From positions 1 to 47,855 of the forward strand of contig CADCHO010000031.1 of NCBI GenBank assembly GCA_902801255.1: 47,855 nt of DNA, in the 5' to 3' direction. This document shows positions 42,767 through 46,215 of this stretch, piece by piece (positions within the stretch are counted from its first letter, which is position 1; each line of letters begins with the position of its first letter). Source of the DNA: an uncultured Eubacteriales bacterium (GTDB taxonomy: Bacteria > Bacillota > Clostridia > Peptostreptococcales > Anaerovoracaceae). The notes under the pieces are model-generated. The model worked only from the letters and a program-made list of their open reading frames with translations, searched no databases and was not told the origin of the DNA. Position numbers and translations under genes: made by a program.

Positions 42767-43339
42767 CTAGATCTTTATCTCGAAATCGAATCCCGACTTG
42801 TAAGGGATCACCATTCCGATGTCTCCCTCCCTTCTCGCTATTCTTGTCTTCTTCATATCTATTACACGCTGATTCTCGGATCCGCAGTACACGAGAGTCA
42901 GATTGCGCAGCTTCTCGTCGTATCTTCCGTCTACCAGAATGTCGAGCATTTCCAGAAGCTCATCGGTCGCTTTATCATGTCTCGCTTCGAGCTCTTCAAG
43001 CGTATAGCCACTGTAACTCATCAGTGTGAGACCTGCTCCCTTTATATTCTTCGCAAGATCCAGAAGTGCCGGCACCTGCTCAAAAGGCTCTCCGCCTGAA
43101 AAAGTCACACCGCGGAGCCACGGCCTGCCGCATATGTCCTCAAAGACCTCGTTGACTGTCATGTCGTAGCCGGCATCGAAAGCCCATGACTCAGGATTGT
43201 GACATCCGTGGCAGTGATGCGGGCAGCCCTGTACGAAAAGCACATACCTGAAGCCCGGTCCGTCGACTATCGACTCCGGTTCGATACCGCACACTCTTAT
43301 TATTTTGCTCTTGTCCTTGCTTTTGTCCATCTCAACCAT
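42767..43339 (-). CDS. nrdG: Anaerobic ribonucleotide reductase activase
   Basis: A radical-SAM enzyme (190 aa) that installs the glycyl radical on NrdD. The cluster motif is GCPHHCHGCHNPESW (CX3CX2C, about residues 38-52), and GGE in VTFSGGEPFEQ binds SAM. ATG 43339 follows AGAGGTG; the frame is open further but lacks a ribosome site there. A terminator separates it from the 55-aa radical-domain gene. Its substrate glycine is probably on that separate protein. Confidence 0.94.
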   Translation of the reverse strand: MVEMDKSKDKSKIIRVCGIEPESIVDGPGFRYVLFVQGCPHHCHGCHNPESWAFDAGYDMTVNEVFEDICGRPWLRGVTFSGGEPFEQVPALLDLAKNIKGAGLTLMSYSGYTLEELEARHDKATDELLEMLDILVDGRYDEKLRNLTLVYCGSENQRVIDMKKTRIARREGDIGMVIPYKSGFDFEIKI

Positions 43340-43359
43340 TGCAGCACCTCTTCTTTCAC

Positions 43360-43396
43360 AAAAATAGCCGCCCACCTCTATACGGTTAAGGCGGCC
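43360..43396 (-). terminator. Terminator between the radical-domain gene and nrdG
   Basis: On the minus strand GCCGCC pairs with GGCGGC over a 17-nt loop and is followed by TATTTTTG. It makes the 55-aa gene a separate transcript; some read-through into nrdG is likely. Confidence 0.75.
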
Positions 43397-43416: not shown

Positions 43417-43584
43417 TTAGTTGTGGGACAGTCCGTGCTTAACTCTGTCCTGTACCTCAGCTCTCTTGCCGTTGTTGAATCTGTCGAGTGTACCGACGAG
43501 ATATCCCGTGATCCTTCTGATTCTTTCGAAGCCAACGCCTTCACCGACCTGGCCGTTTACATTCTTTACCACTTTATTATTCAT
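43417..43584 (-). CDS. Separate glycyl-radical domain of NrdD (55 aa)
   Basis: A 55-aa protein, too short for usual gene calling, with ATG 43584 behind GGAGG at 8 nt. Residues 19-50 (FERIRRITGYLVGTLDRFNN, then GKRAEVQDRVKHG) match the extreme C-terminus of NrdD. In E. coli NrdD, Gly681 of the RRVCGYLG segment carries the glycyl radical, and the following FNAGKQEEV...RVKH segment matches too; Gly27 here aligns with it. The large NrdD upstream lacks this segment. It has its own promoter and terminator. It probably docks into NrdD as a radical-bearing subunit, comparable in principle to GrcA/YfiD for pyruvate formate-lyase. Whether it has been described elsewhere I cannot check. Confidence 0.85.
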   Translation of the reverse strand: MNNKVVKNVNGQVGEGVGFERIRRITGYLVGTLDRFNNGKRAEVQDRVKHGLSHN

Positions 43585-43625
43585 ACCGGTACCTCCGTAT
43601 TAATTCTTCTTTTTGGTGCGCAATT

Positions 43626-43673
43626 ATTCTATTCCCTATACAGGGATTTGTAAAGCAATATTAATGTATATTG
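43626..43673 (-). promoter_or_regulatory. Promoter of the separate glycyl-radical-domain gene
   Basis: Reading minus: TTTACA (43649-43654), 17 nt, TAGAAT (43626-43631), a near-consensus promoter about 35-40 nt before the ATG. The spacer contains the palindrome CCCTGTATAGGG. Just upstream, CAATAT-N6-ATATTG (43656-43673) is a further inverted repeat, possibly a degenerate operator. Confidence 0.65.
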
Positions 43674-43703
43674 TTGTTTATTTTAGAGCATACCACAGCA
43701 TCT

Positions 43704-43736
43704 TGTGGATAAATCTGTGGAAAACCCTGTGGAAAT
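43704..43736 (-). promoter_or_regulatory. Three tandem DnaA-box-like sites
   Basis: On the minus strand TTATCCACA (43704-43712, exact consensus), TTTTCCACA (43716-43724) and ATTTCCACA (43728-43736), start to start exactly 12 bp apart. They lie between nrdD's stop and the promoter of the 55-aa gene. DnaA is known to control nrdAB in E. coli, so control by DnaA here is plausible but untested. Confidence 0.6.
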
Positions 43737-43746
43737 CTTTTTCAGA

Positions 43747-46023
43747 TCAATGGATGCAGTCACATGGAACCGGTACGCTCGGGAATCTCATGCGGAGCTC
43801 GTTCAGTCTCTCGATGGTTACAGGTTCACCTTCGCGTCTTCCGCATCTCGGGCAAACGTCATCGATAACTCCCGTATATCCGCATACAGGGTCTCTGTCT
43901 ACCGGATGGTTGACCGAACCGTATCCTACGCCGGCTTCCTTCATGAATCTGATCACAGATTCGAAAGCCTCCGGGTTCTTCGCTGTGTCGCCGTCAAGTT
44001 CAACATAGCTGATGTGACCTGCATTCGTGAGGTCGTGATATGGTGCCTCGATAGCGATCTTCTCGAATGCTCCGATCGGATAGTATACCGGAACGTGGAA
44101 CGAATTGGTGTAGTAATCTCTGTCTGTGATTCCAGGCAGCTTGCCGTATTTTTCTCTGTCGATCTTAACGAATCTTCCGGAAAGTCCTTCAGCAGGAGTA
44201 GCCAGCAGTGTGAAGTTGAGTCCTGTTTCAGCGCTCTTTCTGTCACAGACTTCTCTCATGTGCTTGATGATCGCAAATGCCTGCTCTCTGGCCTTCTCGT
44301 CTTCTCCGTGATGCTTGCCTGTCAGAGCCTTCATAGTCTCTGCAAGTCCGATGAATCCGATCGAGAGTGTGCCGTTCTTGAGGATCTCAGCAACGCTGTC
44401 ATCAGGTCCGATGTTGTCGGAATCGATCCATATTCCCTGTCCCATCAGGAACGGATAGTTGCGGCCCTTCTTGCTGCACTGGATCTTGAATCTGTGGAGC
44501 AGCTGTCTTGCAACGAGATCCATCATCGCATCGAGTTTCTTGTAGAATACGTCAAAGTCTCTGTTTGACTCGATGGCAAGTCTCGGCAGATTGATCGATG
44601 TGAACGAAAGGTTTCCTCTGCCGCATACTACTGCCTTTGTAGGATCGTAGTTGTTGGCCATTACTCTCGTACGGCATCCCATGTATGCAACTTCCGAGTT
44701 ATAGTCGCCTTTTCTGTAGAACTTCTTGTTGAACGGAGCATCCAGAAAGCTGAAGTTAGGGAACAGCCTCTTTGCGCTGCATCTGATAGCCAGCTTGAAG
44801 AGATCGTAGTTAGGATCTCCCTCGTTGTAGTTGATGCCCTCTTTTACTTTGAAGATCGATACAGGGAAGATCGGAGTCTCACCGTTTCCGAGGCCCGCTT
44901 CTGTAGCGAGAAGGAAGTTCTTGATTACCATACGGCCTTCAGGAGTCGTGTCGGTTCCGAAGTTGACCGAGCTGAAAGGCACCTGTGCGCCGGCTCTGGA
45001 GTTCATGGTGTTGAGGTTATGGATGAGAGCCTCCATTGCCTGGTAGGTCATCTTGTCTGTCCTTGCCCATGCTGCCTCTGCAGCCTGAGCACGGCATCTT
45101 TCAAGCTGCTCTCTTGTGAGTCCGCCGGCATCTCCGCCTCTGTCGAACCATTCGCACAGGATCTCTCCGTATGCGCCGTTGGTTGCAAGTGTAGGAGCTT
45201 CAGCCTCAGCCTTGATCCTCTCTGCAACAGCCTTAGCGTCAGGATATGCCATGTCGAGCTTAGCCGCTATGATCTCTGTAAGTGCGGAGAAGAACTCCTT
45301 GATGTAGGTTCTGGCAACGCCCGGAGCCATCGAGTAGTCGAAGTTAGGTACCGACTGACCGCCGTGCATCTCATTCTGGTTTGCCTGGATCGCGATGCAT
45401 GCGAGTGAAGCATAGCTCATGATCGACTGCGGCTCTCTGAGATATCCGTGGCCTGTGCAGAATCCGTCTTTGAAAAGCTTTATAAGGTCGATCTGGCAGC
45501 ATGTCTCGGTGAGCATGTAGAAGTCCTTGTCATGGATGTGGATGTCACCGTTGATATGAGCCTTTGCGATGTCTTTCGGAAGTACATAGTTGTCTACGAA
45601 ATACTTAGCGCCCTCTGAACCATACTTGAGCATGGTTCCCATCGATGTATCACCGTCGATGTTGGCGTTCTCTCTCTTGATGTCTGCATCTTTCGAGTAG
45701 GAGTAAGTGAGCTCGTTGTAGATGTTCATAAGGTCTGATTCAGCCTCACGGATCTTTGCGTGCTCAGCGCGGTAAAGGATGTACGCCTTGGCAGTCTTCT
45801 CCCAGTCATACTTGATGAGCATAGCCTCGACGATATCCTGTACCTGCTCTACTGTGCATGTTTCGCCGTCGAGCTGTTCTACGACTTTCTTAGTCAGATA
45901 AGTAAAGTCAATGCTCGTCATCTTCTCGCCGTCTACCGCCTTGTTAGCTGCATAGATGGCATTGAAGATCTTAGACTCATCGAACGGCATCTCCTTGCCG
46001 TCTCTTTTGATAATGCTTTTCAT
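43747..46023 (-). CDS. nrdD: Anaerobic ribonucleoside-triphosphate reductase, large part lacking the glycyl-radical tail
   Basis: A 758-aa class III reductase reducing NTPs to dNTPs. The ATP-cone is at 1-90 (IIKRDGKEMPFDESKIFNAI). The barrel has FCTGHGYLREPQSIMSYASL, VNFGTDTTPEG, YMGCRTRV and GRGNLSFTSINLPRLA (active-site region). The C-terminus has a cysteine cluster: CGYTGVIDDVCPRCG (C714, C724, C727) and then CDC (C754, C756) before the stop. Classical zinc sites use four cysteines as two CxxC pairs; only one pair is seen, so the CDC tail may complete it. The RxxGY glycyl-radical tail is missing and lies on the 55-aa gene downstream. GGAGAG precedes the ATG. Confidence 0.95.
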   Translation of the reverse strand: MKSIIKRDGKEMPFDESKIFNAIYAANKAVDGEKMTSIDFTYLTKKVVEQLDGETCTVEQVQDIVEAMLIKYDWEKTAKAYILYRAEHAKIREAESDLMNIYNELTYSYSKDADIKRENANIDGDTSMGTMLKYGSEGAKYFVDNYVLPKDIAKAHINGDIHIHDKDFYMLTETCCQIDLIKLFKDGFCTGHGYLREPQSIMSYASLACIAIQANQNEMHGGQSVPNFDYSMAPGVARTYIKEFFSALTEIIAAKLDMAYPDAKAVAERIKAEAEAPTLATNGAYGEILCEWFDRGGDAGGLTREQLERCRAQAAEAAWARTDKMTYQAMEALIHNLNTMNSRAGAQVPFSSVNFGTDTTPEGRMVIKNFLLATEAGLGNGETPIFPVSIFKVKEGINYNEGDPNYDLFKLAIRCSAKRLFPNFSFLDAPFNKKFYRKGDYNSEVAYMGCRTRVMANNYDPTKAVVCGRGNLSFTSINLPRLAIESNRDFDVFYKKLDAMMDLVARQLLHRFKIQCSKKGRNYPFLMGQGIWIDSDNIGPDDSVAEILKNGTLSIGFIGLAETMKALTGKHHGEDEKAREQAFAIIKHMREVCDRKSAETGLNFTLLATPAEGLSGRFVKIDREKYGKLPGITDRDYYTNSFHVPVYYPIGAFEKIAIEAPYHDLTNAGHISYVELDGDTAKNPEAFESVIRFMKEAGVGYGSVNHPVDRDPVCGYTGVIDDVCPRCGRREGEPVTIERLNELRMRFPSVPVPCDCIH

Positions 46024-46167: not shown

Positions 46168-46215
46168 ACACTATATATTGTAGTCATGGCTCCATTTTGT
46201 GTCAATATATTGTTA
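46168..46215 (-). promoter_or_regulatory. nrdD promoter with two NrdR boxes
   Basis: Minus-strand promoter: TTGACA (46200-46205), 17 nt, TACAAT (46177-46182). Two NrdR-type 16-mers overlap it: ACACTATATATTGTAG (46168-46183, plus-strand reading) over the -10 and TGTCAATATATTGTTA (46200-46215) over the -35. They are 32 bp apart, the typical tandem phasing. The ATP/dATP-sensing repressor NrdR should shut nrdD when dNTPs are ample. The 5' leader is about 150 nt. The rest of 46024-46167 shows no gene. Confidence 0.85.

Follow-up and report, generated by a model that had tools for sequence, protein, structure and literature searches.

A class III ribonucleotide reductase with a predicted separate glycyl-radical subunit in a gut anaerobe

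Introduction

Class III ribonucleotide reductases (RNRs) of the NrdDG type, such as those of P. copri (8p23), S. thermophilus (9d3x) and T4 (1h78), carry the radical glycine on the same chain as the rest of NrdD. According to the accessible parts of two reports, a Zn site precedes the glycine loop in the C-terminal glycyl domain of P. copri NrdD, and this domain flips out for activation by NrdG (PMC11226230, PMC12662201). The same portions state that dATP makes the domain more dynamic in the P. copri enzyme, but not in that of S. thermophilus. The NrdD examined here shares the fold family, the finger-loop cysteine and the glycyl motif with these enzymes, and has an ATP cone in common with 8p23 and 9d3x. 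However, its glycyl motif is located on a separate protein of 55 amino acids.

Several described systems resemble this arrangement in part. The PFL spare parts YfiD/GrcA and Y06I of T4 are likewise small free proteins that bear a glycyl-radical domain (GRD) and complete a large subunit without it. In the sections available of the report on these proteins, YfiD and Y06I are the only validated spare parts, and other enzymes are the subject of speculation (PMC8683613). According to the same sections, YfiD and Y06I rescue PFL that has been cut by oxygen, whereas the partner in our locus is an NrdD made without the domain (PMC8683613). The split class II RNR NrdJa plus NrdJb also obtains a C-terminal RNR domain from a separate gene, as far as the available text describes it, although the NrdJb piece is a cysteine-rich domain and ours is the radical carrier (PMC5704485). 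Moreover, NrdJa/b has a B12-dependent catalytic subunit, whereas our large protein is NrdD by both Pfam and NCBIfam. Finally, split phage nrdD genes also encode NrdD in pieces, but the accessible part of that report attributes the pieces to introns, homing endonucleases, inteins or unexplained fragmentation rather than to a conserved separate GRD (PMC3653736). The open-licence literature, as far as it was available and with subscription papers mostly outside its scope, yielded no class III RNR made of two polypeptides, one of them a separate GRD, and no mobile NrdD GRD.

In a natural two-part class III RNR, the radical piece could be made, charged, swapped and labelled separately. The host is a gut anaerobe and the enzyme makes DNA building blocks. 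The system also makes testable an issue that the available sections of PMC8683613 leave unsettled, namely whether exchangeable radical domains are in use among glycyl radical enzymes besides PFL.

The nrdD locus

The window, by which we mean the entire 47,855-nucleotide stretch of DNA analysed, includes an nrdD gene, a small gene and an nrdG gene in that order (Table 1). The initial annotation had claimed that NrdD lacks the RxxGY tail, without any copy in the large subunit, and that a separate open reading frame (ORF) 162 nt downstream encodes it. Domain searches bear out both statements. NrdD matches positions 1-531 of the 562 positions of Pfam NRDD (PF13597; E 3.6e-190), with an ATP cone at residues 3-89 (Pfam, E 9.7e-19), a barrel with finger-loop Cys450 (GCRTRV) and then a DPVCG..CPRCG knuckle. 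The chain terminates in ...CPRCGRREGEPVTIERLNELRMRFPSVPVPCDCIH*, wherein the tail end is PVPCDCIH, and carries no RxxGY glycyl-radical loop. Residues 19-50 of the 55-aa protein match NRDD positions 533-562 (E 2.4e-8), which is above the Pfam cut-off; a GRD match spans only about 32 residues. This protein carries FERIRRITGYLVG, and Gly27 within RRITGYLVG corresponds by homology to the radical glycine. Immediately ahead of FERIRR is the signature GEGV.

A Shine-Dalgarno (SD) sequence precedes the ATG of the small gene. The NrdG protein scores 149.1 bits against TIGR02491 (cut-off 126.1), and its true start may be a later ATG than the GTG used in our reading.

Table 1. Location of the features discussed in the text
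Feature	Location	Strand or placement	Detail
nrdD, large subunit	43747-46023	minus	758 aa
Gene for the predicted glycyl-radical subunit, separate ORF	43417-43584	minus	55 aa
nrdG, radical-SAM activase	42767-43375	minus	202 aa as read from GTG
nrdD/small-gene intergenic region	43585-43746	minus	GGAGG and TTWTCCACA boxes
Presumed NrdR-box-like 16-mer	46168-46183	upstream of nrdD	2 mismatches to the consensus
Extra free GRD loci of the window genome (L003, L004, L005, L006)	contigs 55, 56, 67, 64		

Fit to known NrdD and proposed mechanism

Residues 317-730 of the window NrdD align with residues 283-705 of P. copri NrdD (8p23), and residues 19-50 of the 55-aa protein align with residues 707-738. 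Because the two alignments are consecutive on 8p23, the proteins correspond to opposite ends of a single known enzyme. The split point is located between the Zn knuckle and the glycine loop. Of the 224 columns that are invariant in 33 intact NrdDs, the window pair keeps 217, including Cys450, which is invariant across 34 alignment rows. All 18 invariant columns falling in the small protein are kept. The roles of Cys450 and Gly27 are assigned by homology.

AlphaFold was run on the read-through chain with two alignments, one of 49 mixed rows beside the window and the other of the 33 intact NrdDs. Both models have a good NrdD core, and in both the glycine loop is placed with low confidence (block pLDDT 43-60). 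Therefore, we do not claim docking from these models. A Foldseek search with the AlphaFold model matched solved NrdDs, although the match does not inform the position of the loop.

Judging from sequence comparison, the locus very probably encodes a two-polypeptide class III RNR in which NrdG would load the radical onto a small, exchangeable subunit. The initial annotation had likewise proposed that the radical segment is supplied in trans and that NrdG activates the small protein, a reading that the comparisons support. The large protein would contribute the ATP cone, the barrel, Cys450 as the thiyl-radical residue and the Zn knuckle, and the 55-aa protein would contribute the loop with radical Gly27 and the C-terminal tail. 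NrdG would abstract a hydrogen from Gly27 of the free small protein, which would then dock in the mouth of the barrel as the cis domain of an ordinary NrdD does. Cys450 would subsequently be oxidised and NTPs reduced. Cutting by oxygen would be limited to the small protein, so recovery from damage would be cheap, as a new copy could take its place while the large subunit is retained. We infer activation of the free subunit, docking and replacement after oxygen damage. The best explanation is that the small radical subunit is obligatory and specific for NrdD.

Conservation of the split within the genus

Among the matches listed, a split NrdD with the small ORF is found in 40 of 46 same-genus genomes. 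In all 40, NrdD stops at NRDD position 531, and the small ORF shares a contig with nrdD or part of it. In one of these genomes (G012), nrdD is spread over two contig pieces and carries two internal stops. The six genomes without the split are 59-86% complete; two (G034 and G031) have solely a different, intact-type NrdD and four have no NrdD match (among the matches listed). When 20 same-genus loci were examined, 18 had the conserved NrdD tail and the small ORF, and the remaining two belong to the genomes with the other NrdD.

The small gene has a dN/dS of about 0.03 (mean dN 0.027, mean dS 0.90), as determined from 17 same-genus sequences and 38 codons with 127 of 136 pairs usable. The E-values, the recurrence of the split among the same-genus matches listed and this ratio together indicate that the observation is not due to chance. 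At one same-genus locus (L037, genome G046), two glycyl-radical ORFs flank a single split nrdD, one upstream and one downstream.

Nineteen same-genus genomes among the matches listed are at least 90% complete. The split type is the sole NrdD found in all 19 (in pieces in G012), and none has a joined NrdD. No match to class I/II RNR (PF02867) was detected in 17 of the 19, nor in genome G000. The two matches are a full-length protein in G043 and a contig-end fragment in G021, a genome with 7% contamination. Thus, the split enzyme would have to work. A hidden second NrdD was considered and rejected, since a further large NrdD was found neither in the window genome (78.5% complete) nor in these 19 genomes; a second full-length copy, which the initial annotation had named as a way for its reading to fail, is therefore not in evidence in this set.

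In an alternative reading, the small protein is a spare part that repairs an oxygen-cut enzyme, and the large protein uses another route or a hidden radical site in cis. Spare parts have a precedent in YfiD and Y06I for PFL, as described in the sections available (PMC8683613). In addition, a free GRD coexisting with an intact NrdD is a spare-part arrangement, and this combination is present in eight of the ten intact-type genomes of a 26-genome set, most of which was picked for a GRD locus. The other 16 genomes of this set have a split NrdD (four are same-genus, and G221 also has another NrdD). A free GRD was found in one of three genomes picked for an intact NrdD. However, the enzyme restored by GrcA/YfiD ordinarily carries the domain itself, whereas the same-genus large subunits stop short of the RxxGY loop. 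Moreover, 12 of the 19 near-complete genomes hold a single GRD match at E 0.01, and a joined NrdD was found in none of the 19. We therefore regard the spare-part reading as very improbable for this genus and favour an obligatory subunit.

Split NrdD genes beyond the genus

Split pairs are also present, among the matches listed, in records named Massiliimalia timonensis, Butyricicoccus, Lachnospiraceae, Oscillospiraceae, Erysipelotrichaceae, Desulfovibrio, Fibrobacter and Anaerobiospirillum, and most of these records outside the genus are metagenome-assembled. When species genomes were scanned using the 55-aa protein as query, at least 80 loci were recovered. Of the best 80, 58 have a free GRD accompanied by NrdD, 15 have a free GRD and no NrdD in the locus, and seven have the GRD inside NrdD. 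Of 85 split NrdD ORFs, which include several loci duplicated from the same genome, 79 have a GRD ORF downstream. The gaps of these 79 pairs range from -97 to 284 nt, all three relative frames are used (27/32/20), and the nrdD stop codons are TAA (45), TAG (19) and TGA (15). A loosely SD-like sequence precedes the GRD ORF in 70 pairs. Among the six split NrdD ORFs lacking a downstream GRD ORF, three (L234, L235 and L236) have a GRD on another contig of the same genome, and three on viral contigs (L056, L087 and L103) have one elsewhere in the locus.

These pairs bear on the idea that one NrdD chain is made after transcription, by stop read-through, frameshifting or protein ligation. The small-gene ATG of the window does share the frame of nrdD, but five in-frame stops, including that of nrdD itself, precede it. 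The other pairs vary in frame and spacing, and several genomes have the GRD on a different contig, so we consider joining into one chain very improbable.

Truncated NrdDs were likewise recovered from a phylum sample (139 genomes, 119 over the cut-off) and an order sample without using the small gene as a query. Among the matches listed, eight phylum-sample genomes have an NrdD truncated at 530-540, and a free GRD is present in all eight. The GRDs of G083 and G126, from one genus, score below the Pfam cut-off, and G212 has an intact NrdD alongside the truncated one. The NrdDs of three of the eight (G216, G155 and G188) belong to another subfamily and thus mark an independent split at the same position. 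Small proteins with SRVVGYLSP are found in G216 and G155. In the order sample, a truncated NrdD is present in three genomes (G260, G292 and G302) that belong to the family but to different genera, and each has a free GRD, 93-95 aa long, located on a different contig (among the matches listed). The truncated NrdDs of these three genomes end in the relics FERIPRL, HERIQRLDIR and FERIERILP, respectively, directly before nrdG. The NrdD of G142 terminates in FERIHRITE.

Such relics at the same junction, together with the internal stops in G012, are what one would expect if NrdD were a decayed or mis-assembled, non-functional gene and the small ORF a remnant. However, the low dN/dS, the SD-like sites, the use of all frames and stop codons, and the lack of a class I/II RNR match in most near-complete genomes of the genus make decay extremely improbable. 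Assembly error, a concern raised with the initial annotation, is refuted by the recurrence of the split in many separate assemblies of the genus and of other families and phyla.

A tree of 82 rows requires at least eight changes between split and intact, three of which are forced by well supported branches. It was built by a quick method with a long-branch warning and has split and intact rows intermixed, so that new splits are not separable from re-fusions. The identity limit of the tree (44% over 560 aa) excluded NrdDs of other subfamilies, and the tree omits most of the copies from the genus, L208, L244, L238, L167 and every locus from L249 onward. Judged by eye, the NrdD-type ORFs at L239-L243 and L247 finish with a redoxin-like domain whose motif is CPNC or similar.

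Among the matches to the proteins examined, neither NCBIfam nor Pfam showed a model for free NrdD GRDs. By Pfam, the PFL-type Gly_radical domain was matched neither in the 55-aa protein, for which NRDD is the only match, nor in seven other free GRDs, one of which has a sub-cut-off aRib match. Although free PFL GRDs such as GrcA/YfiD are described in the accessible text of PMC8683613, it is scarcely credible that the small protein serves PFL or another glycyl radical enzyme, because its NCBIfam and Pfam matches are restricted to NrdD models and its gene is located between nrdG and an nrdD whose product lacks exactly this piece.

Free glycyl-radical domains on mobile elements

The window genome has four further free GRDs, whose matches (E 7.7e-6 to 3.0e-5) do not reach the Pfam cut-off. 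Each is in a conjugation-like operon, where the GRD ORF is beside TrbL-like, TrbC-like or TraG genes. TraG/VirD4 matches are above the cut-off in L003 and L006, TrbC-like and TrbL-like matches are below it, and L004 and L005 were assigned by eye from homologous ORFs.

A search of IMG/VR with the 55-aa protein gave 293 matches, the best 80 of which include 74 free GRDs whose locus has no NrdD, four free GRDs with NrdD and two inside NrdD. For 44 of the 74, at least 3 kb of sequence is available on both sides. A query made from the C-terminus of an intact NrdD, which biases toward full-length proteins, returned 43 short ORFs, 36 matches in long ORFs and one cut ORF among its best 80. When GRD neighbours were inspected on six viral contigs, terminase, tail or endolysin genes were present on three (L074, L041 and L039). 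The neighbour on L084 is an MgsA-type ATPase, and thus not all contigs called viral are clearly phage. Four contigs called viral (L048, L056, L087 and L103) carry a split-type NrdD together with a free GRD ORF, which may be phage genes or part of a host fragment. Matches to the 55-aa protein also occur in 24 plasmid and eight phage records.

Many free GRDs carry the signature G-x-G-[VTIAMQR], or a close variant, immediately before FERIRR. It is present in all 19 distinct same-genus copies and all four conjugative copies. In the scan with the intact query, 26 of 39 free GRDs have it versus one of 21 long ORFs; across all fetched sequences, which are biased by the query, the corresponding numbers are 156 of 188 and one of 59.

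The presence of free tips in other bacteria, phages and conjugative elements suggests a swappable radical cartridge, and hints at a radical supply for DNA synthesis that is shared among anaerobes, their phages and conjugative elements. In a broader proposal, which we consider evenly balanced between right and wrong, free NrdD GRDs are mobile cartridges that phages and conjugative elements use to recharge or take over the class III RNR of the host. Many host lineages would have lost their own domain, and their de novo dNTP synthesis would therefore depend on an exchangeable subunit, possibly including copies from mobile elements.

Sequence boxes near the split genes

The gap between nrdD and the small gene in the window carries two exact TTWTCCACA boxes and one imperfect box, spaced 12 nt apart (about 43704-43736). 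We take these boxes to be DnaA-box-like. Across the entire window there are 2 TTATCCACA. Nine of 19 same-genus gaps (the window, L019, L020, L022, L026, L027, L030, L031 and L035) contain two or three TTWTCCACA boxes, usually separated by 12 nt.

A 16-mer that we presume to be NrdR-box-like is located upstream of nrdD in all 19 same-genus loci, with at most three mismatches. No more than one in 100 shuffles was equally good, a comparison made for this 16-mer. The small gene may be under its own control, and in four same-genus loci the NrdR-box-like 16-mer is found inside the gap between nrdD and the small gene.
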